Source: Aphelidium insulamus (lineage: Eukaryota; Aphelidiomycota; Aphelidea; Aphelidiaceae). From it: a stretch of DNA of 64,000 nt. Shown in pieces: positions 13,805-64,000 of this stretch. Position numbers and translations under genes: made by a program. Each line of letters opens with the position of its first letter. Positions within the stretch are counted from its first letter, which is position 1. The notes under the pieces are model-generated. The model made no database searches. It worked only from the letters and a program-made list of their open reading frames with translations, and was not told where the DNA came from. The stretch is from positions 147,001 through 211,000 of the forward strand of contig JAZDSV010000002.1 of NCBI GenBank assembly GCA_036784855.1, given 5' to 3'.

Positions 13805-13837
<33 letters not shown>

Positions 13838-15089: not shown

Positions 15090-18000
15090 ATGTTTTGCAT
15101 CATTTCCAAGATCGCCGCGCTGGTCGATGCGGAGACTGCCGTTGGCCGCACGATCACGGCCGCCATCGACGCGTTGAAATTGGCTGGCACCTCCTACGCT
15201 TTGTAGGCCTTGCTTTCGCATCAGCCGCATTACTTACAGTATCCTGCAGGGACATTGCGGCGTCCGCAGTTCGCACCCTGACTGTTACGGTCGAGGAGCC
15301 GGTCGAGGAGCCGCCGATGCCGTCGCTCACGTATGTCTCGCACTTGCTCTCTGTATCGCATCACTTATTTCATTCAGAGTCGCCGAAGTCGACAATGATA
15401 CCCCGTCCCCGGCTAGTCATGGCATCCACGCTGTTGTGCGCGGTCGAGGAGCCGATCGAGGAGCCGCCGATACCGTCGCTCACGTATGTCTCGCACTTGC
15501 TCTCTGTATCGCATCACTTATTTCATTCAGAGTCGCTGCAGTCGACAATGATACCCCGTCCCCGGCTAGTCATGGCATCCACGTTGTTATGGCGGTCGAG
15601 GAGCTCGATCGAGGAGCCGCCGATACCGTCGCTCACGTATGTCTCGCACTTGCTCTCTGTATCGCATCACTTATTTCATTCAGAGTCGCCGAAGTCGACA
15701 ATGATATCCCCGTCCCCGGCTGAGTCACGGCATCCACGTTGTTATGGCGGTCGAGGAGCGATCGAGGAGCCGCCGATGCCGTCGCTCACGTATGTCTCGC
15801 ACTTGCTCTCTGTATCGCATCACTATTTCATTCAGAGTCGCCGAAGTCGACAATGATAACCCCGTCCCCGGCTAGTCATGGCATCCACGTTGTTATGGCG
15901 GTCGAGGAGCCGATCGAGGAGCCGCTGATGCTCGTCGCTCACGTATGTCTCGCACTTGCTCTCTGTATCGCATCACTTATTTCATTCAGAGTCGCCGAAG
16001 TCGACAATGCATACTCCCCGTCCCCGGCTAGTCATGGCATCCACGTTGTCATGGCGGTCGAGGAGCCGATCGAGATGCCATGACTAGCCGATGCCGTCGC
16101 TTACGTATGTCTCGCACTTGCTCTCTGTATCGCATCGCTTATTTCATTCAGAGTCGCCGAAGTCGACAATGATACCCCGTCCCCGGCTAGTCATGGCATC
16201 CACGTTGTCGTGGCGGTCGAGGAGCCGATCGAGGAGCCGCCGATACCGTCGCTCACGTATGTCTCGCACTTGCTCTCTGTATCGCATCACTTATTTCATT
16301 CAGAGTCGCCGAAGTCGACAATGATACCCCGTCCCCGGCTAGTCATGGCATCCACGTTGTTATGGCGGTCGAGGAGCCGATCGAGGAGCCGCCGATACCG
16401 TCGCTCACGTATGTCTCGCACTTGCTCTCTGTATCGCATCACTTATTTCATTCAGAGTCGCCGAAGTCGACAATGATACCCCGTCCCCGGCTAGTCGGCG
16501 GCATCCACGCTGTTATGGCGGTCGAGGAGCCTGATCGAGGAGCCGCCGATACCGTCGCTCACGTATGTCTCGCACTTGCTCTCTGTATCGCATCACTTAT
16601 TTCATTCAGAGTCGCCAGAAGTCGACAATGATACCCCGTCCCCGGCTGGTCATGGCATCCACGTTGTTATGGCGGTCGAGGAGCCGATCGAGGAGCCGCC
16701 GATGCCGTCGCTCACGTATGTCTCGCACTTGCCTCTCTGTATCGCATCACTTATTTCATTCAGAGTCGCCGAAGTCGACAAGTGATACCCCGTCCCCGGC
16801 TAGTCATGGCATCCACGTTGTTATGGCGGTCGAGGAGCCGATCGAGGAGCCGCCGATGCCGTCGCTCACGTATGTCTCGCACTTGCTCTCTGTATCGCAT
16901 CACTTATTTCATCCAGAGCTCGCCGAAGTCGACAATGATACCCTCGTCCCCGGCTAGTCATGGCATCCACGTTGTTATGGCGGTCGAGGAGCCGATCGAG
17001 GAGCCGCCGATGCCGTCGCTCACGTATGTCTCGCACTTGCTCTCTGTATCGCATCGCTTATTTCATTTCGGATCTCCGAAGACGACAATGATACCCCGTC
17101 CCCGGCTAGTCATGGCATCCACGTTGTTATGGCGGTCGAGGAGCCGATCGAGGAGCCGCCGATACCGTCGCTCAACGTGTGTCTCGCACTTGCTCTCTGT
17201 ATCGCATCACTTATTTCATTCAGAGTCGCCGAAGTCGACAATGATACCCCGTCCCCGGCTAGTCATGGCATCCACGTTGTTATGGCGGTCGAGGAGCCGA
17301 TCGAGGAGCCGCCGATACCGTCGCTCACGTATGTCTCGCACTTGCTCTCTGTATCGCATCACTTATTTCATTCAGAGTCGCCGAAGTCGACAATGATACC
17401 CCGTCCCCGGCTAGTCATGGCATCCACGTTGTTATGGCGGTCGAGGAGCCGATCGAGGAGCCGCCGATGCCGTCGCTCACGTATGTCTCGCACTTGCTCT
17501 CTGTATCGCATCACTTATTTCATTCAGATTGGTAACCGGTGCCGGCGATACCCAGTCCCCGGCTAGTCATGACATAGAGACTGTTCCCGCCGAAGTGACC
17601 GACGCGCTACAGGTGGCGCCGCTCGCGTACGTCTCTCACCTCATTTCTGTAGCACACCGCTTATTTGATACAGAGTGACAACCGTCGGCGATGATGCCGA
17701 GTCGCCGGCTATTCAATACATGGCGACTGTTCCCGCCGGCATTAGTGAAGAGCTGCAGGCGGAGATGCCTCCGTATGTCTTCAACTTGGTGTCGGTATCT
17801 CTTGCTTATTCTTACAGAGTTACTCCCGCCGATACACATACCGAGTCTCCGGTCATTCAAGACGTGGCTACTTCTGCGACCGAAGCTGCCGAGGAACCGC
17901 CGGCGGATCGCCTCATGTATGCCTCTCGCGTAGTGTCGCTGTATCCATCAACTAAAATGCCACAGAGAGCTTGCTGGCCAAGCTGATTTTGATTCCGGGT

Positions 18001-18470
18001 CGTTTGGCCCGGAACAGCGACTTGCGGCGGTTGGCCGCATGTGGGCCCAATTCGGGATCACTGATCCAGCAGCTGCCATGGACTTTGTGCCCGCGATAAC
18101 GCCCAATCTGCTTGCCGCACGCGCGGAATTACGGGCGAGGGCAGCCCGCTTCAATCCGCCACAGCCATTGCTGGCTTTTCAAATTGTCCGACGGGCATTG
18201 GCGCTGCCGTCTCGCGCGGCCAAGATGCAGAATTTGGAGGTTGAAAAACTAAAGAAGCACATCCGTGCCAATAGCCGCGGCATCGACCCAAAGCCAGGAC
18301 TGCTACCATGGGTACAAAGCAAGCTGGCACCCAAGAAGTACTGGGAGCGCCGCGTGCGCCAACTGACGGCTGAGCTGGCCGGGATTCAGGGCGCCCCAAT
18401 GGTGCAGGTCGACACCGTACGCGGCGAACTGGAGGCGGCCACCGCGAAGCTGTTCACGCTGACCGCGTAA
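15090..18470 (+). CDS. Family B protein with expanded exon array (left copy, probably frame-disrupted)
   Basis: Exon 1 (15090-15202) encodes MFCIISKIAALVDAETAVGR and exon 2 (15250-15330) ends VEEPVEEPPMPSLT. A tandem array of repeat exons follows to 17527, then three older homologous exons (VTTVGDDAESPAIQYM..., VTPADTHTESPVIQDV...). The final exon has AVGRMWAQFGITDPAAAMDF and the C-terminal domain KYWERRVRQLTAELAGI...ELEAATAKLF. The 35-residue repeat reads VAEVDNDTPSPASHGIHVVM then AVEEPIEEPPIPSLT. Most array exons carry +1 or +2 indels relative to the 105-bp unit, so the left gene probably cannot make the full protein unless these are sequence errors. The right copy (29138-30598) has one unit and is open. 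Function is unknown. Confidence 0.5.
15331..17527 (+). repeat. Tandem array of exon-intron units (~152 bp, 15 intron copies)
   Basis: Introns starting GTATGTCTCGCACTTG begin at about 15331, 15484, 15637, 15790, 15943, 16105, 16257, 16409, 16563, 16716, 16870, 17024, 17177, 17329 and 17481. Each intron is about 47 bp and ends TTTCATTCAG. Each intervening exon is nominally 105 bp, in phase 2-2, so adding or losing a unit preserves frame. Observed spacings of 152, 153, 154 and 162 show frequent small indels. The unit at about 15,943-16,104 has an altered end (GAGATGCCATGACTAGCCG). Confidence 0.92.
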
Positions 18471-29137: not shown

Positions 29138-30598
29138 TTACGCGGTCAGCGTGAACAGCTTCGCGGTGGCCGCCTCCAATTTGCCGCGTACGGTCTCGAC
29201 CTGCACCATTGGGGCGCCCTGGATCCCGGCCAGCTCAGCCGTCAGTTGGCGCACGCGGCGCTCCCAGTACTTCTTGGGTGCCAGCTTGCTTTGGACCCAT
29301 GGTAGCAGTCCTAGCTTTTGGTCGATGCCGCGGCTATTGGCACGGATGTGCTTCTTGAGTTTTTCGACCTCCACATTCTGCATTTTGGCCCTACAGCCCG
29401 TCTTCTCTGTTACGGCTTGAGAACTCGATCTACGTTGGCGATGGGTCAATACAGTGTTTCCCTTGCTGGCGCGAGACGGCAGCGCCAATGCCCGTCGGAC
29501 AATTTGAAAAGCCAGCAATGGCTGTGGCGGATTGAAGCGAGCTGCCCTCGCCCGTAATTCCGCGCGGGCGGCAAGCAGATTGGGCGTTATGGCGGGCACA
29601 AAGTCCATGGCAGCTGCTGGATCAGTGATCCCGAATTGGGCCCACATGCGGCCAACCGCCGCAAGCCGCTGTTCCGGGCCAAACGACCCGGAATCAAAAT
29701 CATCTTGGCCAGCAAGCTCTCTGTGGCGTTTTAGTTGATGGATACAGCGACACTACGCGAGAGGCATACATGGGGCGATCCGCCGGCGGTTCCTCGGCAG
29801 CTTCGGTCGCAGAAGTAGCCACGTCTTGAATGACCGGAGACTCGGTATGTGTATCGGCGGGAGTAACTCTGTAAGAATAAGCAAGAGATACCGAGACCAA
29901 GTTGAAGACATACGGAGGCAGCTCCGCCTGCAGCTCTTCAGCAAGGCCGGCGGGAACAGTTGCCATGTATTGAATAGCCGGCGACTCGGCATCTTCGCCG
30001 ACGGCTGTCACTCTGTATCAAATAAGCGGTGTGCTACAGAAATGATGTGAGAGACGTACGCGAGCGGCGCCACCTGTAGCGCGTCGGTCACTTCGGCGGG
30101 AACAGTCTCTATGTCATGACTAGCCGGGGACTGGGTATCATCGGCGCCGGTTACCACTCTGAATGAAATAAGCGGTGTGATACAGACATCAAGAGAGAGA
30201 CATACGCGAGCGGCTGCGTCGGCGGCTCCTCGACCGGCTCCTCGACCGCCATAACAACGTCGATGTCATGACCAGCCGGGGACGGGGTATCATTGTCGAC
30301 TTCGGCGACTCTGAATGAAATAAGCGATGCGATACAGAGAGCAAGTGCGAGACATACGTAAGCGACGGCATCGGCGGCTCCTCGACCGGCTCCTCGACCG
30401 TAACAGTCAGGGTGCGAACTGCGGACGCCGCAATGTCCCTGCAGGATATTGTAAGTAATGCGGCTGATGCGAAAGCAAGGCCTACAAAGCGTAGGAGGTG
30501 CCAGCCAATTTCAACGCGTCGATGGCGGCCGTGATCGTGCGGCCAACGGCAGTCTCCGCATCGACCAGCGCGGCGATCTTGGAAATGATGCAAAACAT
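29138..30598 (-). CDS. Family B protein (right copy, apparently intact)
   Basis: ATG at 30598 (MFCIISKIAALVDAETAVGR) and TAA at 29138. Homologous short exons, each ending in phase 2 before a ~47-bp intron beginning GTATGTCTC or GTACGTCTC, give one recent 35-residue unit (VAEVDNDTPSPAGHDIDVVM...) and three older units. The last exon encodes WAQFGITDPAAAMDFVPAIT, a basic stretch, LKKHIRANSRGID and the C-terminal KYWERRVRQLTAELAGI domain. The product is about 380 residues. In contrast to the left copy, the units here keep frame. It has a 26-residue stretch (SKGNTVLTHRQRRSSS...) missing from the left copy. No known domain; relatedness to family A is by the C-terminal domain and the MFC N-terminus. 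Confidence 0.6.
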
Positions 30599-31271
30599 GA
30601 TGTTGGTTGAGGTAAGTGGTGTGAGCGTAAAATAGGTAAATGAGAGGGCGATGAGACTGCGTGAGGGCGGAAGCTGTTGAAAACAAGCTGAAGAAGTAGC
30701 TGGACTGCACAGCGCTGCTTATGTGTACGCTGTGCTATTTGCGCACCTTGGCAACGGTTGTTGGCCATTTTAGGAAATATTTGCATACGTACACCACGTA
30801 GCCCGCCTCACTTGACGGGTGGCCACTGTGGAATAGCGGTGAGTGGGTGGCCAGTGTCATCATTGGTGCAATCGGCATGACCGCAGCACAGGCGCTGCAG
30901 GCACCAACAACTAGGATAAGAGAGCAGGGCTCCGTGTGAATAATTGCCGACCACCTGCCGATTGTCAGCGCCACCTGACAGCTAGGGTCTCGGTGAAGGG
31001 CGACGCTCTTGTGCTGTCAAACGGGAAAGGTTGCCTGTACTGCTACGTACAATAACATATCATGACAGGGTGAGTCATATATGTGCAGCAAAACACTCTG
31101 TATAACCACACTTGCACACAGCGCCTGTAAGCAGCGCGCAGACACATCACCGGTGCAGCGGTGTCAGTGTGCAACAGTGTTACACAGACACAGACACAGA
31201 CAATGGCACAACTCTGCACAACCCTGATTGAGGGGAGAGAAAAGTCTATTGCAGTGCAGCAATCATCAACA

Positions 31272-32004
31272 TCAGGCGCCGTGCTGGAAGAGCTTGGCGA
31301 TTGCGGCGCGCAGCTCTTCGCAGCACGGTTCTATGCGCCAGATGTTGTCGCCGCCAGTGCAGATTCGCTGCAGTTCGTCGGTGAGTGTCGTCACGCGGCC
31401 GCGCCAGGAGTACTCTGGCGTGATTCGGCGTGTCCAGCGATCACGGCGACCGTCAGAGTGGGGCGGGCAGGCGTCTACGTTGGCGGCCACGTGGATCTGC
31501 AGCTCGCGCTTCTCTTGCTAGCGGCGCTTCTTGCTGGCCGCTCTCGCCTGCTTCTTCAGCCGGGCGCTGGGAGCGATGAATGGGCGCGTGTGTTTGGCGC
31601 GGCGGTACGCTTCGCGAACGCGCTCTATGACACATGTTAGTGTTAGGGCACTCGGATATATATCAGTATATCTACCTTGGCTAGCTGCCAAATCTTCCGC
31701 ACTGGCGCTGGCCAGTGTCATAATAGTGCTGGATGCGTTGTCGCAATCGCTTTGGGTGCTGTTGGTGTCACTATCGTCGCCCAAGCTGGCGGTTTGAGAG
31801 TCGGCAAGTTGTTTGCGTGGTGTCAGCCTGGACAGTGTCAGTGACATTAACGATACACACACACACAAAGGGACAGAAACATGGCAATGAGACTTACATA
31901 ACATCGGCGACAAAGTCAAGCGCGATGAGAGCGGTGTTGATGGCGCGGCCAGTCTTGGTGGTGCAGTCGATCAGGGCCTTGATGGTGGCGAACAGGCAAA
32001 ACAT
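31272..32004 (-). pseudogene. Family A copy with premature stop (inner right-arm copy)
   Basis: Same three-exon layout as the intact A gene: ATG 32004, MFCLFATIKALIDC, Ser/Asp linker, basic helix, C-terminal RVTTLTDELQRI domain and stop at 31272. At 31520-31518 the CAG codon of the KRRQQEK segment is TAG, cutting the product before the conserved C-terminal domain. The downstream frame is otherwise open, so the lesion looks recent. Confidence 0.7.
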
Positions 32005-32204
32005 GGTGGAGATGGGTGAAGAGTGAGAGGTAAGAGAGAGAGTAAGAGAGAGAGAGTAAGAAGGCGAGGAAAACTAAGTGGGCTGGAGGCGTAAGTGGTA
32101 AGTCTGTTGCAGTAACGAAACTTGAAGAACATCTGCGTCGGCGCGGGCGTCCATGTGTCGTCGCTTCCGTAACCATGCGACAGTTGCCATGGCACGATTA
32201 TTCT

Positions 32205-35200
32205 TGTCATTGGCCCCGCACCAGTTGCTTTTATTACATATCAGTTGGTGTAGCTGTCTGTACTTTGCAACTCGCATACTACTACAATTATTCATTGTTG
32301 ACCGGTTAACTGCTGGCCTTGATTGACACCGGGCTGACTAGCACCGAGATGACTGGGCAGGCAATACATATTTAACTGCGCCTTTCATTATGTTCCTTTT
32401 ACTAGACTCATTTACCATTTGTTGAAATTTCAAGTGTGCATTGATAGGAATGTAATATCGGTGGTGCTAGCTAGTACATTTATGAACAATCCTTCATTGC
32501 AATATTGTGAAGTGTGCATGGCGGTCAAATGGCCATAGAAAATGCGAGCCATATACAAAGTAGCATGGATTGAAATAATTAACGGTTTACACATTGTCAT
32601 GGCATCGTTGCATTTCACGTTATAACGTTACATATTACCCTTTATGGTACAGTTATATAGGTGCTACATTTGCAGCGAAAACGAATGCTTATATTTGTAC
32701 ATACATAGTTGCGATATTATCGCATCTCTGGTACTCGAACTAATTCTGTTGTCCGACGTATTGGCCGAGCCCTGGCAGACGTGGACAGCCTTGCGGCTTC
32801 TGTCAGCATTCAGCGAGTGTGGCAGCAACTCTCTTTTATTTGGCGCATGAGACGGCTATGGCACTGGCCGCGCGGCAGTAATTGACTCGCTGTAATAAAA
32901 ACTCTGCTTCCTATGGAGCTTGATTGATACTTTGTAGGCGATACAGAATAACATCTCCGCGGCAACTACTGTAGCGTCGTCTGCCATGAGCGCCTGATGC
33001 TGACGAGATCGCGCATCAGCACCACGTCTACGCAGCTATCCTCGGCCGGCGTATAGTGCCGCTGTTTTTGTCGTGGTCAGGGATTCCTGCGCTAAGCGCC
33101 TGGCCCCGCTAGCATTCGTGGACTCCCGGCATACCTGGCCATAAGTTTGCCACCTGGTGTCCCAATGGCTACTGGCAGGTGATATACACATATTATGGTT
33201 GCTCTATCCTTCAAGTTCTGACAATGCTCTGCAGGCGCGCGGGTGTCAGCAGCGCCATTCCGAGGAGATCCTTTGCAGAGGCAGCTGGCTGGCTGCTCTG
33301 CCCAGTCACTCTGCACAGGTTCAACTCCGCATGCTACCGTGACACCACTAGCATGACATATCTGTGGTGTATTGAGTGGAGCTGAGCGGAGACTGCGCGG
33401 CTCTATGCCCCTCCAACAGGTTGCACATTACAATATAGCATAATCCTAACGCCATACTCTGAGCATATACCCATTCAAGAGCTGTACGCACTTAGGCCGC
33501 GTGGGTCGGTGCCACCAGCCAGCGCACCGACACTCATCTGCTGTATGACGCGAGACACTGGCACATAGTGCGTGCTGCCGCGTCGCACCGTAAGTATCAC
33601 TATACGCTTTGTGGTTCCCGCGGATTAACGAGGGATCCGCAGAGTCTGTGCACCGTGCGGTGAACTATAGCTCTGGCTCTCTGCAGCACATGCTGGCTCT
33701 GCACCACCCACTGACGCGCGTTGTTAGACTGGGACCAATGCAGTGCGTAACCACATTACATATCACGGCTATATTTCCCAGTTGCATCCCTGCCACGACC
33801 AATGGCACGACCCGCTGCCCGTCATACATATTGCAGAGAGGACACATGCTCTAGTACGTACCACTGAAAGTATTTCGCGCGCTGCTTGACCTGCTTAAAG
33901 CCTACAATGACATAGTTCTGATGCACATCATAACACTAGAAAATACACACAGAAATTACACAGTACACACGAATACACTTGTCAAACGCAGATGTAAAAT
34001 CATGCATGTATATATAAGTATAAACGTACAGTATATACAGAATGTGCAGGCAATGATGCAGTAGGATGCAGTGCTGAAGACACAGGGAGGCACGGAAGAC
34101 ATATGTACAGAGCACCACTGCAATCTGCGTTCATCAGCTATGCTGGACAGTGTGTTGCGCGTTATACCAGGTATCTATCAAAGCAACGCCCAAAGCATAT
34201 ATCAAAAGTACCAGAAAAGTGCAGTAGCAGTAGTCATAGGATACTATTTGTGCATCGAGTAATACTGAAGGTATACAGTACACATAGTCCGCAGACACAA
34301 GAGGCACGGAGACATATGTACAGAGCACCACTGCAATCTGCGTTCATCAGCTATGCTGGACAGTGTGTTGCGCGTTATACCAGGTATCTATCAAAGCAAC
34401 GCCCAAAGCATATATCAAAAGTACCAGAAAAGTGCAGTAGCAGTAGTCATAGGATACTATTTGTGCATCGAGTAATACTGAAGGTATACAGTACACATAG
34501 TCCGCAGACACAAGAGGCACGCAAGCATATGTACAGAGCACCACTGCAATCTGCGTTCATCAGCTATGCTGGACAGTGTGTTGCGCGTTATACCAGGTAT
34601 CTATCAACGCAACGCCCAAAGCATATATCAAAGCACCAGAGAATTGCAGTAGCAGTAGTCATAGGATACTACGGGTACATTGAATATCGTACTAGAGCGG
34701 AGCGCGCGCCAACCAGGGTGTCGCTCATGTGCTCATCATCTCGTGGCAGCCCTACTCTACCCATGTGTGTCAGTATAGAGAACAAGCAGTGATAATGATA
34801 TGAGAAATGATAAAGTGGTTGGCAGCGGTCGCACAGTTTCATGTCTCCGCGACACAAGGCTGCAAGTGATGATAGTCAGTAATTGGAGCCACTTGCAAGT
34901 ATGTAACAAAGCCTGGCGACGGCCGCCACTCCACAGCGTCAGAGTAGCCTTGATGACCAATGCAGAATTCAGCAATCATCAGCAATAGTGTCGCAGGAAG
35001 CACGCAGACGAGACATCGAGAGCAGCAAAGTGAGAGTGCGAGTGTGCGAGTGCGCTCGAGCCGCCAAACAAGCCGCGCCATCGATTGCGCAACAAACAGT
35101 GTGATTGACGGCTCGATTGCGCTTGGCTTGGATCTGTTGCACACAGCTGCCTGATAGACACAGACAGACTCAGACAGACTCAGAGACAGACACACGCACA

Positions 35201-35450
35201 CGCACAGAAAGAGAGAAATAGAGCGAGAATACACTCTGTATTTCCATATTGATACTCACTCATTTGAGTGAAATAGAGAGATAATGGCTCCGATAATGAA
35301 CTGTGTACAATTGATACTTGGTACATGGCACTTGTATACTCATAGGTGCGCTTGCAGCAGCTCTAACCGCACTTGAAGCGTCATGTGGGCTGCAAGTAAA
35401 CAAAATAAAATTGTTTTGAACACAATCGCCGCACAATCGCCCAATCAGCA
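32205..35450. other. 3.2 kb insertion unique to the right arm, mostly without recognisable genes
   Basis: This AT-richer stretch between the two right-arm A copies has no counterpart in the left arm. Short ORFs occur (for example on the plus strand at 32644-32850 and 33609-33854), but none has a domain, codon pattern or copy that supports coding. It contains the 213-bp tandem repeats at about 34.08-34.69 kb and CAGACAGACTC-type short repeats near 35,160-35,200. It may be a decayed mobile element, but no terminal repeats or transposase were seen. Confidence 0.45.
34080..34690. repeat. Three tandem copies of a ~213-bp unit
   Basis: The landmark CATATGTACAGAGCACCACT recurs at about 34,100, 34,314 and 34,527 (period 213-214). 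Copies one and two are almost identical over CAGCTATGCTGGACAGTGTG; the third diverges after AGCATATATCAAA. The open reading through all three units on the plus strand is a by-product of a period divisible by three and is not called as a gene. Confidence 0.9.
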
Positions 35451-35478
35451 GTCTATTGCAGTGCAGCAATCAACGTTG

Positions 35479-36210
35479 TCAGGCGCCGTGCTGGAAGAGC
35501 TTGGCGATTGCGGCGCGCAGCTCTTCGCAGCACGGTTCTATGCGCCAGATGTTGTCGCCGCCGGTGCATATTTGCTGCAGTTCGGTGGTGAGTGTCGTCA
35601 CGCGGCCGCGCCAGTAGTTCTCTGGCGTGATGCGGCGTGTCCAGCGATCACGACGACCGTCAGAGTGGGGCGCCAGGCGTCTACGTTGGCGGCCACGTGC
35701 ATCTGCAGCTCGCGCTTCTCTTGCTGGCGGCGCTTGGTGCAGGCAGCTCTCGCCTGCTTCTCCAGCCGGGCGCTGGGAGCGATGAATGGGCGCGTGTGTT
35801 TGGCGCGGCGGTAGGCTTCGCGGACGCGCTCTATAACACATGTTAGTGTTAGGGCACTCGGATATATATCAGTATCTCTACCTTGGCTAGCTGCCAAATC
35901 TTCCGCACTGGCGCTGGCCAGTGTCGCAGTGCTTGAGGCGTTGTCGCAATCGCTATAGTTGCTGTTGGTGTCACTGTCGTCGCCCAAGCTGGCGGTCTGA
36001 GAGTTGGCGCTGTGTTTGCGTGGTGTCAGCCTGGACAGTGTCAGTGACATCAACGATACACACACACACACACAAGGGACAGAAACATGGCAATGAGACT
36101 TACATAACATCGGCGACAAAGTCAAGTGCGATGAGAGCGGCGTTGATGACGCGGCCAGTCTTGGTGGTGCAGTCGATTAGGGACTTGATGGTGGCGAACA
36201 GGCAAAACAT
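35479..36210 (-). pseudogene. Family A copy with frameshift (outer right-arm copy)
   Basis: ATG at 36210, three-exon layout as in the intact copy, and stop at 35479. Near 35,672 one base is missing within NVDARPPHSDG (the copy reads NVDAWRPTLTV and goes out of frame), so the conserved NYWRGRV...LFQHGA end is not translated in the starting frame. The 3' flank is cut at about 35,450, where similarity to the left arm ends and the 3.2 kb insertion begins. Confidence 0.7.
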
Positions 36211-36741
36211 GGTGGTGATGGGTGAAGAGTGAGAGCGTAAGAGAATGAGTAAGAGAGAGAGAGAGTAGGAAAGCTAAGGAGTCGAAGAAGGCTGGAGGCG
36301 TGAGTGGTAAGTCTGTTGCAGTAACGAAACTTGAAGAGCATCTGCGTCGGCGCGGGCGTCCAAGTATCATCGTTGCCGTCGCCGTGACAACCTTGCGATA
36401 GTTGCCATGGCATCATAATTTTTGCCATTTATGGCATGTCCTGCGAGTAATCGCTAACCATAAGCTAAAGAGTTCTTTGACGGCCGAATGTATTATTACA
36501 AGCTGGCGCGGTAGAATGTACGCACATATAGAAGCGCCTTTAAATATAGATTCGGGATTTGGATTCTGATGTTGACTCACAAAGACCTATGTGCAACGAA
36601 CGGTTCTGAGGTGTCATCCACTCACTTATGAAATGTCATCAAATGCATATATGACTCTTATGGCTTGATAATATCTGTTAGTGTGCACACCAATTGCCTG
36701 CACTATAACAAATGTAAATGACACGGACTTTCAGGCGTCTA

Positions 36742-38067
36742 TTAAATCAGACGCCGAGAAGCCGCAGCGCAGAACCACGATGGCCGCGGCTTCCGGCGTC
36801 GAACTGGTGGCACGGCAAAACCGCTGCGGCCAGTGTCGTTGACCGCCGCCACGACGGCAGCCAACTTCTCGGCGGCCACGAGAAGCAGAGCCGCGTCGGG
36901 GTGATCTGCCGGGGTTGCCTTGATCAGCTCCTACAACGGGAAATGAGTGGATATGCTGCAAATGCTTGAACAGACTACGCCGCACCTTGACCAGCAGCGG
37001 ATATTTGCATATCCGTTGCACCGGCTTGATCAAGTAAGCTTCGATCGGCAACCCACGGTAATCACCCGTCGCCAGCTCGGCCTGAACAGAGTTGAGTGGC
37101 CGTGCAGTGTACATACACTTAATAAATATTATTATCATACCTGCACGGCCGACTTGAACGGCTCGCGAGAAGCCAGATCCACCAGCAGCTGGCTCGCCCG
37201 GGGATAGTTGCTGCAGTACGCGCCGTACGCAAGCAACTTGTCCACCTACCAGTATCTTAATACGGCAGATACACAATACTATACACAGACACACAAGCAT
37301 ACCGAGCGCAGCAAGACGCCGCCAACGCCGCTGATGGTCTGGTTCTCGTCCAGACTGGCCCGCAACTGCTCAAGCATCTCTTGGCTGATGCCGAGCAAGT
37401 TGCGGGCGCTGCTCAACAGGCGCTGCAACGCGGCTGTGTCCAGCACACCGACACCAGCCGAGCGGTGGATGACTCCGCCAAAGCCCTGTCAGCCGTGTGA
37501 GACACACCGAGAGAACACTGTGTGACACACACTCTCCACTCACATCCACAAGCAGCGCCATGTCGCGCGCAAAGTCGGCCTCGGTGCTGACGAGCTCGTG
37601 CAGCACCTTTTGGCGGGTGACCTCGGCGGCAGGCAGGTCAAGTGCCGCCACCTCCGCGGGGAGGGCAAAGACGGGCGCGGGCGGCGAGCAAACAGTCGTG
37701 ATTGGTGCCGGCGCGGAGAGAATGACGGCTGGCAGTGGCGACGACACCTCCTCCACACTGCTACAGAGACTGTAAGCACAATAAGCGTGCACACAGACAC
37801 CCGGGCACAGTCTGCGTACATGATGGGAGAGCGGCGACGAGCACGGACCGAGAACAGTGATGTGAGGCGTTGGTGCGCGCTGTGAGCGGACCTGTGCGCA
37901 CACGCCACGTCAGCACCGAGACACTTGCTGTCACAATACACTTACTCATCCAGGCTTTCGCGGAACTGGCGGCACATTGCGGGGCCGCGGAAGCGCAAGA
38001 GAGAGATGTAGTAGAAGTAGGACTGGGCGGGGGTACGCATGGTGCGGGTGTAGGTGCGTGAAGACAT
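36742..38067 (-). CDS. DH-domain (RhoGEF) protein, right copy with altered C-terminus
   Basis: This is the mirror copy of the left RhoGEF gene: ATG 38067 and the same DH motifs (STEADFARDMALL, LPIEAYLIKPVQRICKYPLL). Near 36,815-36,825 an 11-bp insertion after CTGGCCGCAG shifts frame, so the last ~25 residues differ (SGFAVPPVRRRKPRPSW...) and the stop is TAA at 36742-36744. Substitutions in the DH domain appear conservative. The intron after the second exon lacks the long GT tract of the left copy. It may still be functional because the DH domain precedes the change. Confidence 0.65.
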
Positions 38068-38615
38068 CCTGAAGAGAGCGGTGAGCGGTCGCCAAGCGGC
38101 TTTTTGTGCGCAGCCGTCGCCACGGCAACTGCTGTCGCTGCGGTGTGGGCGATTTGAGCGCCGACGGATACCCGTGTGATGTGTGAGTATGTGTGGGTGT
38201 GTGTGTGTACTTGCGTGTGCGGGAGTGCGCGTGAGTGTGCATCAGCTGGGCCGAGAATCGCCGCCCGCCTCAGCCACAGTCACCGAGGCAAACAAACGCT
38301 GTCAAACGCGCGCCGCACCTCCAAAGCAGCACTCGATACAGTGGCAGAATGCCCCATGGCAGCCAATAGACATATGGATTGCAGAAGGCTCGTATGGTGC
38401 TTGTGTGTTGTATGATCATCAACACTTTACTTTTGCAGACTTCGCACGCACACCTTACCCATGAACCACGCAGATGCGCTCATGTCTACTCATCTCCTAC
38501 ATCACCCCATCACCGAGATGTGCTTATAAAGTTAATGGTTGCGCTGACATGGATTCGTCGAAGCATTCAAGACGTTTTACAATATCTATTGACCACCGTA
38601 CATATATGTAGACTA

Positions 38616-38820
38616 TCATTCATTGTTGTCGGCCAAGCGAGGAAGCACACGTGCCCAGTGTCCGGTAATGTGGTCCAGCTGCGTGTCCAGTTGCTGCCTG
38701 TGATGTCTCTGGTTGGTCTGGTTGGCAGATGTGACTGTTTCTGATCTCATACCTGCGGCGTCGGCGGCAGGATCGAACTGCCATGAGTCGCATAATAAAA
38801 TTGTCTTCCGATAGTCGCAT
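38616..38820 (-). CDS. Very small two-exon gene, right copy
   Basis: Mirror of the 58-residue gene at 10994-11225: ATG 38820 (MRLSEDNFIMRLMAVRS), same 55-bp-type intron and same ending GHWARVLPRLADNNE. It lacks the 27-bp insertion present in the left copy. Conservation of frame across both arms is the main argument for coding. Confidence 0.4.
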
Positions 38821-39552
38821 ATTGCTGTAGGTTGTTGCGGTTGTGAGTGTTTGGTTGAGTGAGAGTTGTCGCAGAGAGCTAGAGTTGTTGGGAGTGCAGT
38901 GGCGAGAGTGGAAAGAAAGAAGTCTGTTGTTAAAAATAGGCGTCCGTTGCCATCTTATGTAGTACGGATGTGGCACATGGACTCTTTAATTTATTCATGT
39001 AAATGTACATATTTCTTTATCTACTGTGTAAGGAAAATTAAAGCTTTTCGTGCGCCGCTTTAGGCAAGGAGTTGTCACATTTGGCATTGTTGGACAGCTC
39101 CCAAACATGACGCCGCCCAAACCATAATCAATCGCATACTGTGTTCTCTCGTAGCCTATCATCAAATTACCTGACGGGCTTTGCGCCCAACAAGCATGCG
39201 CCGTGGAGTCCCACTCTGTTATTAACTCTTTAAGGGGCGGACTTTAAGGGCTTTTATCGTGGCATTAGTGATGTGCTCAGTCGTCGTGGTTTGTCGGGCT
39301 GCTTGGACGGCACTGGAGCGGCATAAATACCAGAGGTACCAGTTCAGCCGATCGGAGATGATTATCACGCCGAAGCTGCGTATGATGCTAAAGTGCCTTA
39401 GTATCATCAGCAACTTTTGCAATTGGACGCAATGAGCAGTTTGTCAACTCTGTTGTGTCTAACAACGTGGATGTCCTTCATCATTTTCAATTGCGCTATA
39501 AAATCGTGGCGAAAATGATGTGCGTTTCGCGTGAACAGTACACATCACCCAT
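38821..39552. other. Intergenic sequence outside the right arm, up to the TIR element
   Basis: The first ~130 bp belong to the end of the inverted repeat. Beyond about 38,955 there is no similarity to the left flank and no supported gene. The element insertion site is at 39552/39553. Confidence 0.45.
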
Positions 39553-55656: not shown

Positions 55657-56132
55657 TTATTCATTAGTCGTGGATGTGCCGAGAGCGGAGGAGGACTCGT
55701 CGGCTGCGGCTGGCATGGACTGCGAGGACGCCAGTGCGGCACTGGCCTCGGCGGCAATCATAGAGTTGGCGGTGGCGGCATCCTCCTCGTCGTCGCCGCT
55801 CTGCTGCATTAGCTCCATTATGGAGGACTCTAGCTCGTCCATCCGGGACGCCATCTCCTCCATCTTGCCGAGGATCTGCCCCGACATCTGGTCAAAGCGG
55901 CTTTGCTACAGTGATGGTTATTACACGTCAGTGTGGGTGGGTGCCTGGATGGCGCGAGCACAGCGCGTACCAGTTGGTCTAGCACATTGTCCACAAACTG
56001 TGTGAGCTCGGCGGGGTTGGCGGCAAATTTAACAGCGTCCGCCTCAGTGGGCTGCTTGTCCATGGCGGCTGGTGCACCTGCCACCGGCTGTGTCTGCGGC
56101 TGTGCAATTTCTGCGCTTTCGTCGGCGGCCAT
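55657..56132 (-). CDS. HSBP1: Heat shock factor-binding protein 1 homologue
   Basis: Two exons, 56132-55971 and 55905-55657, give 136 residues. The conserved coiled-coil core reads LTQFVDNVLDQLQSRFDQMS then GQILGKMEEMASRMDELESS and IMELMQQSG. This follows the animal HSBP1 core (FQTMSDQIIGRIDDMSSRID-like) residue class by residue class. HSBP1 trimers bind HSF1 and dampen the heat-shock response, and also support WASH complex assembly. This protein is longer than the usual ~76 residues, with disordered Ala/Ser-rich extensions at both ends. Its start codon is only 131 bp from the stop of the Fanzor gene on the same strand. Confidence 0.88.
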
Positions 56133-56139
56133 ATTTTCG

Positions 56140-56275
56140 CACTTGTGCAGATCAAGGAGAATTATAGTGGCTTGGCTAAATACTAGAAATTGATCTAGCA
56201 TTGTGGTGGGACCGGTTTTACCCGGGACTGTCCGGCATAACCGAAGTTGAGACCCCTTGCGAGCTACGCTCGTTG
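56140..56275 (-). ncRNA. Candidate guide-RNA (fRNA/omega-type) region at the 3' end of the Fanzor gene
   Basis: Guide RNAs of TnpB and Fanzor systems come from the 3' end of the gene and its downstream flank. On the minus strand this stretch has a CGAGC-GTA-GCTCG hairpin over the last codons and a second inverted pair CTAGA...TCTAG about 75 nt downstream. The middle is GC-rich (TATGCCGGACAGTCCCGGG). The call rests on position and visible hairpins only; the HSBP1 promoter overlaps the same DNA. Confidence 0.25.
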
Positions 56276-58292
56276 CAGATGGCGTGGTCGTTCTCGACCA
56301 TGTATCGCACTCTCTGCTGCCATCCAAATATTTGACGCCGCGTTGCAATCTCGATTCCACAGGCGTCTACAGGTTGTACACCTGAGCCGACTGCGATCTT
56401 TGACTGTAGCTATCCAATTTGGATTCGGGTTGGCCTTTCGCCGAAACGGTTTGCACTCAGTCGCTACTCCGACCGAGCCACAGTGACTGCAGTATTTGCT
56501 GGTTCTGAACTCATTCACCAAGTACACCTCATATCCAGCCCTGCGCAGCGTTTTTCGAAAACCTTTGCCTTTGACTGGTTCCTTGAAGGGTCGATGCTGC
56601 CGCTGCGCCCAATCTCCAATTGCCACAATGGCTTCATCTGGGCCGCCATATTTCTGTCGAAATATCTTGAGCATCTTGGCCTCGGTTTTTTGGCGCAGTA
56701 TATAGCTACCGAGCTTCAGCTTTCGAAACATGTACTCCCTGTAAACTGGTAATAGTTGTAAGTTGCACCTGTTTTTGGCCACGCAAAATTCGCGAAATCG
56801 ATCCACATTTAGCGATTTTGAATTGAACGCGCTTAGTTCGTTCTCCCACTCTCGCACATACTTGTCTCCGGCCATACGTGACGTTTTGTTGCGGCGAATT
56901 TGCCTGTACTCGGAGAATCGCGTTTCTTTTCTACGCTGCTGCTGCGTGCAGCGAAACTTGTCTTGATACTTTTCTAAAACTGTTAATAGATGTATCATAT
57001 TAAGCATCATGCATGCCTGTTCCATCCACGCAGTAAAGCAAATTCCCCATGTTTGGATCAATGGCCACGATGGTTTTACGCATCAAGTTGTCATAGTTTG
57101 GTAGTTCGTCAATGTATAGATCGTTATTCTGAGCTGCAACTTGTATTTGATCTCCTTGCACCATGACCTCTTTTTTCAGTAAAATGCTGCAGCTGACACC
57201 GTCGGTTTGAATTTGGTAATCAAAATGAAACTGGTCCTCATTGTCATTTCGAAGCCGGAATGCTTTTTTGTCAAGTTTGAAAAAGAGACGCCACACTCGG
57301 TTCTTGTTCACAGCATTTAGCGGTTTAAAGTCGACCTGCCTGTCGTCGATGTGGGGGAAACAAATGTCCATCAATGCTTTGGTGTCAAGTCGTATATGCT
57401 TTGGGATAATGTTGTTGCGCAACGGAAATACATTGAGTAGCTTCTCACCACGTGCCTCCACCAAACGCATCATGTATATCATTGGTCGCAAGTAGTCCTG
57501 CGGTGAGATTTGAGAATCGTATGCCGCATTGATGTTCAATTCACGCTGCGGTAGGACATGAAGTCGCTGAGCTTGAATCCATTCGTGATGCTCTGGCTCG
57601 GCAGTAAGATCACCATGACTAAGTAGGTCGGTCTTTACGCGCTTCAGCGAGTCACAAAAGTGAGACTTTGCCGCTCTCCGTCGCTCGACATTTTGATCCT
57701 CCTTGAACGCAAGTAGCCGTTCTCGCATGTTCATTGAAATGTTCACAAAGCGCTGCACATAGTCCACAAAGTGCAGCTTAATATTGTTCTCGTACATTGT
57801 TATGATCTCGGTGGTTAGAAACTCGATGACGTTTGAAAGCCCAGTGTAGTTGTCTCGATGGACCTCCATGTCGCGCAAAAACATTTCCACGCGGGGCTGA
57901 ATTTGCTCTTGCAGCTCGGCCATTTCGGGCCCAAAGTGATGGCCATTTCGCGGCGGTAAAGCCAGCAATTTAATCGCCAGCTTGACAAAATTTCGAGATA
58001 TACGTGGAAGCGGGTTTCCGGCATCGTATTCCCGGAGCACATAATCTTTGATAAATTGGTACGTCAATATCATAATGCTATGGCTTCGATAGACTGCCGA
58101 CTTGATATCAGTCAAAGTCTGATCTGCAGTTGAACCGTTTGATCCCGCCTTAAGAATTCCCTTGAGGCCAGTTTTGATCGTCTGATAAGTCACCATTCGA
58201 TGCACACTATGTGGCTGTTCATCAAGGATCGTACGTTTTGCAGCGTCATGCCTTGTAGGGGCTCCAGCTGCACGCTTTGAAGCGCGTTTCAT
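56264..58292 (-). CDS. Fanzor (eukaryotic TnpB-like RNA-guided nuclease), apparently intact
   Basis: Exon 1 is 58292-57017 and exon 2 is 56979-56264, joined by removing a 37-nt GC-AG intron (GCATGC to TTAACAG), to give 663 residues. The N-terminal ~400 residues match the Fanzor1-type REC/WED region (NVFPLRNNIIPKHIRLDTKA). The RuvC-I motif is VAIDPNMGNLLYC with D412. FRCTQQQRRKETRFSEY follows. At the usual RuvC-II site there is AIGDW (Gly547 rather than Glu), and a Glu (E582) lies 35 residues later in LVNEFRTSKYC. That is the rearranged catalytic site reported for Fanzors. The zinc finger is C589/C592 and C626/C629, and RuvC-III is NRDCNAASNI with D636. The C-terminus is RERPRHLQRA. These nucleases cut DNA guided by a RNA from their own 3' region. 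No flanking transposon ends were found. Confidence 0.9.
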
Positions 58293-59264
58293 CTGTACAC
58301 CGTGAGAAGCTTTGTGATAGCATTTCTTATATACGCATACGTTGATATTTGTCGGTAACTCTTGTGAATGACAGTTGTATTCACAATATGTAGTTATTGG
58401 CTATATTATTAGTACTTGTGAACAACAAATATGTGACGCAAAAACGCATTAATGCTTTAACACACCTAAATCGGCGCCAATTTGTTTGCGTTAATACTCA
58501 GCTGCCTTGACGTTTGCCGAGACAGTAGAGCTTTGCTAATCGGTTAGGATGTATATAGAAACATTTGGCTACCATACTGGTGTGTGTGTGTGTGTTGTAA
58601 GCGTCTTGTAAGTGTCGTTTGTGTGTTCGGCGTGCTCGGGAATGTACAAAATTGGGAGCGCACAAAGGAAAATAAGAGATTTGCGCGCGCTTTTATGGGC
58701 GCAGCGACGTACAAATTTCAATATATCAACTGACTAATCGCATTAAAGCAATATATTAAAACATTCATCGACATTGCAGTCAGCTAATCGCGTTGTCTGC
58801 AGCAGCAATTTTAATCAAATTGAAGACGCTCCACCACCACCTGGTTTTGCAGGCCAATCAGGAGGCGTGGTTTAATATAGGAATTTGCGCTCCGCACTCT
58901 TAAGCAGTTTTCGCGCAGATTACTCAAATTGTGCGTGTTGCAATCGTGCGCCACGCACCACGCTTTTATATTTGCGCCTAACAGGCTGTGGCGCAGTCGG
59001 TCAAGGTCGTACGTGAATGGCGCAGCAAATGCGGCGGCGCCAACTATATAGTTGCGGTGAATTCAGATGTAATAAGATTCCAGCATACCAAAAGCATTTT
59101 GTGCCGTTTAAGAGTTTAGTAATTTAGTTGTTGTGTTGTAGAGTTTAGAATATGTGCGCGCACAGTTGTGGAACACAGTTTTTGTTGTGGAAGCATTGAT
59201 TTACTATGAAGCAGTGCTGTGTATCGTAAGTGCGTGCGTGAACTCATCCGAAAGCGTTAGCAGA
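58293..59264. other. 970-bp intergenic region between the Fanzor gene and the unknown nuclear gene
   Basis: No ORF is supported. It contains a (GT)8-type run near 58,580, GCGC-flanked TTTTAT motifs (about 58,686 and 58,971) and a 14-bp palindrome CAACTATATAGTTG (59041-59054). It should include the Fanzor promoter. No inverted repeat matching the Fanzor 3' flank was found. Confidence 0.5.
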
Positions 59265-60960
59265 TCACTTCTTTTGACGGGGCGTGGCTACCTTACGCCT
59301 TTTGCTTGAACCCGCGGCGGCAAGCGCCAGTTTGCGCTTGGCAACAGGGACGGGTGTTACTATTTCCGAAATGGGCATACAGGTGTGTCAACTCCACCGT
59401 CAGCCGAGGAGGAGCTACCGCTGGCTTCAGCCATGGACATTACATGACTTGGGCCAGCAGTCCTAGAATTGCGTGTTGGTGTTCTTCCTTTGCTCGCAGC
59501 AGCACCACGCGCTGATTGTTTTGGCGCTGCATTTTTGTGAAAGTTTCGAAGCGCATCCGAGACATTCGGGTCCCCAGAGAGCGTGCTGCCATCAAAGTCA
59601 CGTGCCGGAATCTTGCTCTTCTCGGCCGCGGTGCGTGGATAGTCGACAATTTCAACAAAGTCACGTGACGACATCTTGCCCTTCTCGGCAGCGGTGCGCG
59701 CACGCTGGGAATGCTGAGTGCTGGAGCCGGCACCAATGTCCACGCCGCCACTGTTGTCAGCATCATCGGCATCGTCAATCAGCGTAATTACCGTCTTACG
59801 CGTAGCTGTAGCAGTGCGTGCCGCCTCTGCAGCAACTTCTTCGTCATGAGCATCGATCTGCTCGAGCAAGTCCGCCAAAATTTTGTCATTGTTTGCCGAC
59901 GAACCCAATGGCGGTTCGGTGGAGGATTCCGCAGTGGTTGCTTCGGCCTTTACACCAGGAGTTCCCATTGCATCAGCTTTTGCCGCAGTACCACGGCGCG
60001 TAGCTGGTGGAAGCGGCGACGATGTAATCGTTGCACGAGACGAACCTGCCGGGGCCAGCAATTCAGACGGGTCAGAGTAGCGTGGCGCAGGTTGCGTAGG
60101 TCGGCGGAAGTTCCACAGCGAGCTGGCAGCGGGCGACGTAACACCGGGCGTAGCGGCGGCAATCACATTGCGTCCTCCAGTGACAGATGCAAACGTGAAG
60201 TCGGTTGGATCGAGGCAGATCGTTGTCACCGTGTTGTCCGCAACAACAACATCACTCAGGCAGCCTGCACAGCAGATTAGTTATTACACAGTGTACACAC
60301 TGGGCACGTACCGCTGAAGAACAACGCAGAGCGGCGATGCATCTTCCCCACCATGTTGCCATACTGAGTGACATTGTAGGCGCACTCGAACTGACGGTAT
60401 CCAGTCAGTGACTGCGAGATACATCAAAGCATATCGTACCGTGACAGTGGCACTAATGCTGTTGGCGTACAGAGGCGTTTCGATATGGATTGCCGTGTTG
60501 CTTGGGCCGTTGTACGCGCCCACACCACAGATACGCGGCGAAAACGGCGCTGCAGTTTTGTTTGTCAGTATGAATGCATGTATACGCGTGTATGCGTGTG
60601 TGTAAACGTACGCTGATCGCCATGCAGCGGGAGCAAACGGCTTGCCTCCACCAGCATGAAAATCGGCTGAGAGAACGCGTGGTGACGCGACCTTCAAGCA
60701 TGTAGGTGCACGTCGGCATGGGTTCAACCACCTCGCGATCCACGTCCGTCCACGACACCATCATGATGTCCACGGCTGCATCAGGAGACACTGTCAGTCA
60801 CTGTTACACGGCACTGTCACAGCAATCACGTTGTGCTTACGGTGCGTGGTGCCGGCGAAAATCGTGGCATTGCTGCGGATCCAGCGCGAACCACGCGCGT
60901 CCGAGTCGTCCGGGTTGCAGAGTGCTGAAATGTGCTCAAGGAAGACTGCGGGCGCTGCGA
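59265..60960 (-). CDS. Predicted nuclear protein, unknown family (5' end unresolved)
   Basis: A multi-exon frame can be followed through: AVFLEHISALCNPDDSD, RWIRSNATIFAGTTH, VDIMMVSWTDVDRE, PIFMLVEASRLLPLHGDQ, FSPRICGVGAYNGPSNTAIH, FECAYNVTQYGNMVGKMHRR and CLSDVVVADNTVTTICLDP. A long disordered Ala/Ser/Thr-rich region follows, with two copies of RTAAEK-x-K-x-x-x-RDF. A 38-nt intron (GTGGAG to AAATAG) joins SSSSAD to the last exon, which ends in a bipartite-type nuclear signal (KRKLALAAAGSSKRRK) and stop at 59265. No ATG lies in the first visible exon, so an upstream exon is missing from the model. A globular N-terminal domain plus a basic tail suggests a chromatin or DNA-associated role. I recognise no family. 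Confidence 0.5.
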
Positions 60961-61126
60961 CGCGCGGCTTTTATGCTGCGGCAGAAGTTTGTGTCACGTA
61001 ATTTCAGGCAGGAGCGAGGATTGGTCGTCAAGGTGGAGAGGGCCAATCGGGGCAGAAAGTGCACATTTTTGTAAATTAGTTGTCGGGCGCTTTTATGATA
61101 TGATATGATGTGGCTTGATTATGCTT

Positions 61127-64000
61127 TTACAATGCAGTAAACATTGCTAATGCGGGATTGCTGGCGAATTCTTGGCGCAGCGCGCTTAAAGCTTGTTCGT
61201 GCTCTTCGTTTGTTGTGTCGGAAGCTTGTAGTGCACGTAAAAGTGTCTCGCCCAGCTCAATTATGGTTTGCTCCTCACTTGCTTGCTGCGGGGCTGTCTT
61301 GCTGTCGGCGATACTTTGTTTTGTACGCAGCTGCACCATGCCATTATCGTGCACGATATTCACAATTCATTCCTACCTGCTCGGCTATAGCCTTGGCATC
61401 TGTGATAATGTTTGTCGGGTAGCCAACTTGTGCCGCCAATTCCAGGCCGTAGCCGCGCTCTTTAGTCACACCATCGCGTAAGCGGTAAGTGTACTGATAT
61501 CCGGGGCTATTGTGGCATGGCTGTGCATCATCCCCATTAACCAGTGCACATAACAGCACCACAAACACCAACACATACATCGACGTGCAGATGGCAAGTG
61601 GTGACGGCGGGGTACACTTCCAGTATGCTTGCCAGTTCCGAGAAATGCGTAACAAAGAATACAAGTGCCTTCTTGCTGACAATCAGCTCCTCGCACATGG
61701 CACACGTGATACCCAGTGCGTCGAATCGCGACGTGCCCCTCCCCAACTCATCCACAAACACCATACTGTTGGCCGTCACTTGGCTCAGTATGTATGCCAT
61801 GTCTCGCATCTCTGCCATGAATGTCGACGTGCTTGTCTCAATGTCGTCATTGTTGTGCAGCCGCGTCAGTATCTGGTCCACCACGCGGAATGAGGCATAC
61901 TCTGCCGGCACGTGGCAGCCAACCTGTGCCAGTATCACCAGCAGTGCTATTTGTCTGTGGTATTAAGTACAAATTTCATGGTGCATAGCAGCTCTAGATA
62001 CCGGAGATATGTCGACTTTCCGCTCTGCATTATTAAGTGTTAGATATAAGCAATATGATATCATGTATGTGGGTACCATGTTGGGACCGGTGATTATTTG
62101 AAATGTGCAGCTGTCCACGGCGTATATGTCGTTCGGTATATATTGTACTGTGCGGTCGAGTGCATCGCGGACTGGGTGGCGTCCAGAGCGCACGGCAAGT
62201 GTGTCGGAGAATTCTGGCTGCACGGCGCCGCGCGGTAGTTTGATCGCGTAATTGGCGAAAGACGTGAGCATGTCCAACAGTCCGATGGCTTCCGATACTT
62301 TATACAGCGCCGAGATCTTGGTCCGCACGAACGACAGCAGGTCCTGGATAACACTGCGATATTAGTGGTGGCTGTAAACGTATGTGTCAATTGTTACGTG
62401 TCTGATAGCAGGGTAATCTCGGTGTAAGACTCGTGCAGTCGTTCATTCAATTTGATCAGTGCCAGCGAGGTGTATGATATGGTGCGCTTGGCTCTGGTCG
62501 GGTTCACAAACTCCGACGGCAAGTGCTTCTCATTCACCAGCTCCACGCTGCTGGACAGCGAGTAGCCAGACACGGCATTGAAGTTCAGTTTAATCGGGAA
62601 CTCGTATTTTTCTCCATACTCCTTGACCACGCGATGCACATCGCCAGTGACCTCGTCGTACGTCTGTCGCGCAACGTCCAGAAATGAATTTGTACCAGGC
62701 TTCATGACCGTCGTTTCATTCAGACAGTAACGACATTATAATAATGCTTGCCTTGACCGCCTGGATATACTCTCGCCTGCCTTTAATCCCGCCACCCTCA
62801 TATGACACACTTTGCGACAGAGAGTTGTCGATTTCAGCTCGTATGTCATCCAAATCAGAGTGGCATAGTGTCTGCAGAGAGTGAGTTTGCATTGCGAATC
62901 TTACGTACTCGCCGCGTGCTTGGCCACTAGTATATCACCGTGCTTGCCCTGCAGCAGTTCTGCAATCACACGAACGCTCTTGAGCGACGTTTTCAGCTTC
63001 AGCACCACGTTTATGCAGCGTGAAGCGTATGCTGCACTTATATTACTTGGAACTTGCACAATCTACTTGTTTAATTATGAGTATTTTGATATCAGTCCTT
63101 GCCGTTGATAGCAGGTGATCAATGTCCTGAACCGAGGCAAGCGCTATAAATATTAGGAGATATACATGGTGCTCTACAAAACGCCTCAACTACCCTGCTG
63201 GAGTGACATTACGCAACCGGCCTCGTCCATTAATGCTACGTTGGTAAGTACAAGGTCAGCAGTGTATTCAACCACACCTTTGACTGCTTCATGGCGTGCT
63301 TTTATGGTGTTTACATCTTTGACGGGCTGAACAATATTGGCACGTAAAAGGCGCGCTTGCGACAGATTAATGGAATGCTTTAAATAAAAAGTAGCCGTAC
63401 CTCCCATAGCAGTCTTTGTGTAGTTTACGGCGGAATAGAGTGTCATTCGACCGTGCGGGTCATCAACATTGGAAAGCAGTTCCAAGTCACGAACTGTGCT
63501 CAAGTCCATTAGCATCAGTCCTTCGCCGGTGCGGAAGGTTATGCGCGCAGTGTGCGGCTTGAAGCTGAATGCACAGCTCTCTCGAACTTTCTTCACTAAA
63601 GCTCCAAAGGCTGCCAGCGCGTAATACCTTGATGAGTCGTCAGCACATTGTGTGTAGTTTGCAGTGTTGACTCTACTTGTTTCGCATGTTCATCAGCCAC
63701 AACTTGGACTCGTCAACACCGAATTCCTCGATAAAGTCCACGCCTACATCTCATAATCCAGGTATTTACAGAACATGAACGTACCATCCTTGTCACTGAA
63801 ATCGCGGCGCGGCACTGTCAACAGTCGCATGGCATCGCGGTCCATGGCACATGCACGTTCCAGCGCGCTAATCAGCTTGGAGCTCCACATTGCCAAGCTC
63901 TCGGGTGCCGATATCAGCACCTAAATAAGGTTTTGTAATGCATTGGACTAGCATTAATAGCAAACTTGCCGAGGTTGAAGGCGATACCACCATTATGTGG
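61127..64000 (-). CDS. MSH4: Meiotic MutS homologue MSH4 (5' end beyond the window)
   Basis: The gene runs off the right edge and ends at 61127. Core-domain sequence LYSAVNYTKTAMG joins LLRANIVQPVKDVNTI across an intron. The ATPase domain has the Walker A ITGPNM-SGKSTYLR, where the SGKSTYLR part is a 23-nt microexon (62024-62002). Then come GCHVPAEYASFR, NDDIETSTSTFMAEM and the Walker B FVDELGRGTSRFDALG, and a TTHF-type FVTHFSEL. VPAEYSSFR and DDIET-x-x-STFM are typical of MSH4 rather than MSH2, 3 or 6; there is no N-terminal mismatch domain in view. MSH4 pairs with MSH5 to stabilise crossover intermediates in meiosis, implying a sexual cycle or its recent loss. Confidence 0.88.

Follow-up and report, generated by a model that had tools for sequence, protein, structure and literature searches.

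The question raised by this locus is whether a gene that looks broken when read directly can be read as one protein after splicing. On the minus strand of the window (the whole 64,000-nucleotide stretch analysed) an open frame starts with an ATG at 58292 and stops at a TAA at 57002–57000, directly behind the peptide CVDGTGMHDA, and a second frame ends at 56264; the break lies just after RuvC-I. Start, stop and strand of the gene (58292–56264, minus) are as an earlier note on this DNA had claimed. Judging from sequence comparisons, we think it very likely that this is a Fanzor1 gene carried by a multi-copy mobile element, one family of which has a 43-nt U2-type GC-AG intron after RuvC-I, and that splicing would give a protein of 661 aa with a full catalytic triad and a C4 ribbon.

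The predicted protein

Excision of the 43 nt joins exon 1 (57017–58292, minus strand, 1276 nt), identified by its open frame, matches to Fanzor1 structures in the PDB and a conserved Asp, to exon 2 (56264–56973, minus strand, 710 nt with the stop codon), identified by a Pfam match, conservation and alignment to SpuFz1. A search with the joined product, which the earlier note had proposed as a check, bears out its assignment: phmmer comparison with solved structures gives the Fanzor1 proteins of Parasitella parasitica (9cf0, 5e-32), SpuFz1 (8gkh, 8.2e-32) and Guillardia theta (9cer, 1.1e-13), and Pfam gives Cas12f1-like_TNB (PF07282, E 6.5e-10). By its phmmer matches to these characterised proteins, the predicted product is a Fanzor1, and by homology a TnpB-like, RNA-guided RuvC nuclease of the eukaryotic kind.

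The order along the protein is the RuvC triad with its alternative Glu, then the C4 zinc ribbon, then RD. Asp412 of RuvC-I is encoded in exon 1, and Glu580, the zinc ribbon (Cys587/590/624/627) and Asp634 of RuvC-III in exon 2; D412/E580/D634 align to D383/E541/D606 of SpuFz1. When the 661-aa form was used as a query, 625 database relatives were found with E <= 1e-3; the best is about 660 aa long and 45% identical over 96%. We compared the protein with 121 relatives, namely 120 of these 625 matches plus family B from the same genome (see below). The 120 are predicted proteins in which gene introns are not visible, and their retrieval with the 43-nt form as query introduces a slight bias toward that form. 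The triad columns hold D in 121, E in 119 and D in 118 of the 121, and the four Cys are kept in 121, 121, 119 and 111. The catalytic D, E and D and the four Cys previously listed are thus present and conserved, although the numbering E582/D636 given with them most likely becomes E580/D634. One Fanzor1 relative in the database (P0044), 40% identical, is assigned to Sphagnum tenellum, on a 15.5-Mb contig, and may be a plant copy or a contaminant.

Exon 1 also contains QTDGVSCS, which matches the Fanzor1 TDG motif. That motif is placed in the WED domain in the structural account of PMC10711439, and we infer that QTDGVSCS lies within the corresponding domain here.

Boundaries of the predicted intron

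The GC donor CAG/GCATGC at 57016 is confirmed. Three acceptors are in frame with it, a CAG at 56980 (37 nt), TTTTAG at 56974 (43 nt) and a third at 56962; removal of 57016–56980 does yield a 663-aa open frame, as had been reported. In-frame excisions without stops, up to 97 nt long, were scored against a profile of the 121 relatives with splice signals ignored (2037 excisions, 1220 distinct peptides). Of these, 57016–56974 (43 nt) ranks first, with a score of 118.1 and three equivalent registers, and 57016–56980 (37 nt) ranks 32nd with 109.1. Of 2772 excisions with a suitable length, taken from almost the same stretch and with stops allowed, only 42 have GT/GC...AG ends, and agreement between the blind test and the splice-type ends is therefore beyond chance expectation.

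The predicted intron (56974–57016, minus strand, 43 nt, phase 1) reads CAG/GCATGC...TTAAC...TTTTAG/AA, combining the donor, acceptor and branch-like site of a U2-type GC-AG intron, with the A of TTAAC 9 nt from its end. In its product 10 residues separate the Cys of LLYC from the Phe of DKF, the commonest spacing among the 121 relatives (10 in 96, 7 in 17, 11 in 7 and 8 in 1).

An alternative explanation is that the CAG at 56980 is used, either alone or together with that at 56974 as a tandem pair with a 6-nt offset, to give 663 aa with two extra residues. This overlaps with the preferred reading, and the 37-nt intron is likewise GC-AG and in frame; it also has a TTAAT 20 nt from its acceptor, and three host introns have their only branch-like motif at 29–41 nt. 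We nevertheless consider it unlikely. The 12-residue spacing that it produces is found in none of the 121 relatives, it stands well down the profile ranking, its length falls below the whole range of the 17 supported host introns (40–75 nt), and its nearer branch-like A is only 3 nt from the AG. On spacing, rank, length and branch distance alike the acceptor 6 nt further on is the better one, and 56974 (TTTTAG) rather than 56980 is most likely the true acceptor. What stands of the original proposal is its core, that the frame needs a short GC-AG intron in a host that can use GC donors, which agrees with the relatives, with paralogues that lack the insert and with host intron anatomy; the exact 37 nt and 663 aa are not supported.

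Introns and GC donors in host genes

The element starts some 20 bp beyond the apparent stop codon of a host MSH4 gene (61127–64000, minus strand, running beyond the window end), which we identified by a MutS_V match (E 4.5e-43), by homologues, the best 50% identical over 68% of the query, and by direct reading of the stop. The window also contains an ASCC3-like helicase gene; for both genes the best named homologues are from early-diverging fungi at about 50% identity, with ascomycetes and animals lower down, and on this basis we regard the host as a fungus. The helicase gene is flanked by inverted segmental duplications (10854–18217 and 29469–38961) that are about 91–96% identical, and a 153-bp tandem array lies at 15288–17528.

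To determine host introns, each of these two genes was compared with ten homologues by spliced alignment; the 16 possible donor dinucleotides carried equal cost, and the acceptor had to be AG. Seventeen introns are backed by at least half of the references, 12 with GT donors, 2 with GC and 3 with others. Both GC donors are in MSH4 (2 of 10 supported introns) and none is in the ASCC3-like gene (0 of 7). The intron at 62751–62700 is supported by all ten references, and that at 63102–63063 by 5 of 10, or by 7 of 7 with donors restricted to GT and GC; near 63969 a third MSH4 case is likely, one of the three introns with other donors, which is 3 nt away from a GC donor preferred by 4 of 7 references under the same restriction. 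The earlier statement that five or more nearby host genes have GC-AG introns is not confirmed at that breadth, with GC donors in one of the two genes tested; further candidate GC introns lie in a coiled-coil gene (48.8–55.4 kb) and a kinase gene, neither with homologues for comparison. GC-AG introns of fungi are a known and mostly U2-spliced class, and GT-AG introns make up 98.7% in the fungal survey figures of PMC7072748; against this background 2, perhaps 3, of about 10 MSH4 introns are GC-AG here, although the sample is small.

The supported introns are 40–61 nt long in 16 of 17 cases; the seventeenth, of 75 nt with a CA donor, looks like noise. A branch-like motif, defined as [CT]T[AG]A[CT] with its A 5–16 nt from the intron end, is present in 9 of the 17, compared with 8% of random window positions, and both MSH4 GC-AG introns are among the eight without it. 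We rely on this count over all 17; in a hand-picked set of nine host introns, 7 have such an A, at 8, 9 or 14 nt. With GC donors in MSH4, and a host-like length and branch distance in the Fanzor intron, it is plausible that the host could splice it.

Copies and families in the genome

The Fanzor query, searched exon by exon, has 73 matches in the assembly (17.95 Mb, 169 contigs); they group into about two dozen clusters, of which some are mere fragments. We fetched 20 loci, which by nucleotide similarity form at least three families: A with nine copies including that in the window, B with six and C with five. Two pairs with a common flank (L042 and L045; L046 and L054) are possible duplicates of one insertion. 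Several Fanzor matches (on C95, C12, C117, C38, C96, C115, C53 and C149) are situated no more than about 5 kb from the end of their contig, which may mean that they are subtelomeric or that the assembly broke at repeats.

A search with the intron's first 37 bases, allowing up to 3 mismatches, finds nine places on nine contigs and no others in the assembly, all with the GC donor; eight are in fetched family-A copies and one (C53) falls within a Fanzor match outside the fetched set. Confinement of all nine to family-A copies or a Fanzor match speaks against the intron being a spreading 'introner'. Three family B and C loci that we translated read straight through the intron site (CVQGTDRNQTKF, CVQGSDRNQTKF and CVSGAGPDQTKF) in stop-to-stop frames of 663, 765 and 877 aa. 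Gain of the intron in family A is the simpler history, though not the only one, since database proteins reveal no gene structure. The ninth fetched family-A copy, a match on C149 that we considered as an intronless sister, being a single piece, is uninformative on the intron because a larger deletion spans most of it together with part of exon 2. The 877-aa frame belongs to a family-C locus (L048:3030–5660, G000:C86:47k) whose Fanzor has a long low-complexity insert before RuvC-I, rich in Arg, Ser, Gly and His.

The gene had been described as apparently intact. This is so of the reading frame in the window, the only one of the nine fetched family-A copies without a lesion beside the intron, but not of the family: the other eight each have at least one frame-changing indel, three have stops as well, and the family evolves close to neutrality. 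Across nine copies dN/dS is about 0.83 for exon 1 and 0.94 for exon 2, neither different from neutral. When bases near indels are masked and the two most truncated copies left out, the remaining seven give 0.66 for exon 1 (p = 0.07) and 0.67 for exon 2 (p = 0.12), jointly p = 0.023. Constraint on exon 2 is not below that on exon 1, but the signal is too weak for selection to serve as proof of splicing, and the values are compatible with family A having been dead since the insertion.

This bears on a second explanation, in which the 43-nt stretch is an insertion that is never spliced, family A has been a pseudogene ever since, and its copies were spread in trans by family B or C proteins or by the element's transposase. 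The eight broken copies and near-neutral nine-copy dN/dS would be expected, as would a right end less changed than the ORF (see below), as is usual for cis-acting parts, and families B and C do have open frames. Yet such an insertion would have to bring splice-site ends, a host-like length and a branch-like site to exactly the position where their removal restores the conserved protein, both exons are equally mildly constrained in the better copies, and the window copy carries no further lesion. We regard this explanation as improbable, and favour a spliced 43-nt intron.

A canonical GT-AG intron is a much poorer candidate. In all, 20 GT-AG, GC-AG or AT-AC choices of 25–89 nt leave the frame open, and one of these, 57029–56969 (61 nt, 655 aa), does have a GT donor. 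Its removal takes out VDGTEK, however, so that 4 residues remain in an interval that spans 7–11 in the 121 relatives, and it ranks 330th in the profile test (score 92.6), which makes this reading very hard to credit. The existence of such choices does mean that it was an overstatement to say that a gene finder limited to GT-AG would call a pseudogene. Repeats near contig ends are prone to assembly or sequencing error, but recurrence of the insert at nine genomic places on nine contigs with no more than 3 mismatches excludes a sequencing error and, for practical purposes, refutes this last explanation.

Anatomy of the element and its 5' module

Repeat boundaries common to copies in different flanks define the whole Fanzor-bearing element as about 4.9 kb (56181–61110, minus strand). 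Its left end, ATCATATCATAAAAGCGCCC, lies within 61104–61110 (ATCATATCATAAAAGCG) and is shared by copies in different flanks. Upstream of the Fanzor gene is a 5' module of about 1.9 kb (59180–61110, minus strand), apparently with a spliced gene whose longest open frame is 59363–60280; its pieces, joined by eye, have no match in Pfam. The module is 91–95% identical in front of family A, family B (3 of 6 fetched loci; L040, L046 and L047) and family C (4 of 5; L048, L049, L051 and L053) Fanzors, and the Fanzor proteins of families B and C are about 41–52% identical to that of family A. The three families diverge at one common point, near window position 59180, and their right ends differ. Among other copies, the module is merely 66–84% alike in L041 (family B), was not found within the fetched stretch of L050 and L054 (family B), is absent from L037, L042 and L045 (family A), and in L052 the locus is cut by the contig start. 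Matches to the module gene are also found on contigs without a Fanzor match, for example C98 and C107.

The five family-C copies are about 99% identical across their overlaps, in four of them with the module included. Family C has therefore probably been active recently, and module and Fanzor cassette seem to move as one unit in this family. We tentatively raise the possibility that a Fanzor gene with its right end forms a swappable cassette on a shared mobile left module, that the element could retarget or renew itself by exchanging its nuclease, and that the GC-AG intron marks one lineage of such cassettes.

The right end and the class of the element

Behind the stop codon, the right end (56181–56263, minus strand), a possible omega-RNA scaffold, ends in CTAGATCAATTTCTAGTA; it is recognised by a CTAGTA end in all eight family-A copies that reach it and by its few mismatches. 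When the 84 nt from stop codon to element end are aligned to eight other copies (636 bases, gaps aside), 3 mismatches appear, fewer than in exon 2, a contrast that comes mainly from three copies of which two are close kin. This conservation fits a cis-acting end or an omega-RNA. Folding of one right end per family gives z values of -1.17 for A, -6.66 for B and -1.18 for C, so that the window's own right end folds no better than its shuffles and we do not propose it as a structured RNA; the family-B value reflects a very strong hairpin (L040:4740–4860) a few bases ahead of CTAGTC. A search of 56000–61300 against Rfam gave no match at E <= 1. One right end stands alone without a Fanzor gene (L060, G000:C12:141456–141535), starting near the stop codon position, and resembles the ghost elements that PMC10432273 describes in S. 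punctatus.

The left ends of the window copy and four others read ATCATAT, two further copies being truncated there. All right ends compared read CTAGT, followed by A in 8 of 8 family-A and 4 of 4 family-C copies and by C in 6 of 6 family-B copies. Neither an inverted repeat of the ends nor a target duplication was seen in the compared copies. A search for RepHel with the profile PF14214 gave no match, and none came from its controls either. The helicase profile PF05970 gave 21 matches; at the one locus inspected, on C165 (L059, G000:C165:25200–28200), a long ORF that we take to be B-family DNA polymerase-like lies beside the PIF1-like helicase match, and the region looks viral or Polinton-like. 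The ends of the present element recall those of Helitrons, which are known carriers of Fanzor1 (PMC3627910), and are suggestive in this respect, although the base after CTAGT is fixed within each family here, unlike the canonical Helitron flank.

Implications and comparison with known systems

By analogy with the Fanzor family, the events at this locus may run as follows. The spliceosome would remove the 43-nt intron, the right end of the element would supply an omega-RNA comprising scaffold and guide, and the nuclease would cut matching DNA through D412, E580 and D634; cutting would in turn favour retention or copying of the element, its likely role. Gene finders can miss or mis-splice Fanzors whose frame needs a short GC-AG intron, and catalogues of RNA-guided nucleases may consequently undercount them. 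A genome that holds an intron-bearing lineage beside sister families without the intron offers a natural setting for testing at what point a TnpB-derived gene adopts host splicing. The part most worth following is the shared 5' module before unlike Fanzors, which raises a testable question of cassette exchange.

Our search for literature joining 'Fanzor' with 'GC-AG', which took in few subscription papers, found none. One 2023 paper reportedly bears on Fanzor introns. Fanzor introns as such are not new, since Fanzor1 genes with 5–10 EST-supported exons, compared with the two predicted here, were described in Chlamydomonas elements in 2013 (PMC3627910). The elements concerned, CRe-1, -2 and -3 of Chlamydomonas reinhardtii, are likewise multi-copy with many copies truncated; their authors assigned them to Helitron2 (PMC3627910), whereas the present element has only suggestive ends.

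The Parasitella parasitica Fanzor1 (PDB 9cf0–9cf3) is the best match in the PDB by E-value (5e-32) and is also fungal, but the RuvC insertion domain (FRI) described for it in PMC11423790 is not apparent here, the alignment skipping its residues 972–1086. SpuFz1 of Spizellomyces punctatus (PDB 8gkh, 9ceu–9cez) has the same triad, D383/E541/D606 (PMC11423790). PMC10432273 describes a single ORF for it and a locus of 2.1 kb that has inverted repeats, whereas the gene reported here has a predicted intron and is carried by an element of about 4.9 kb whose ends form no inverted repeat.
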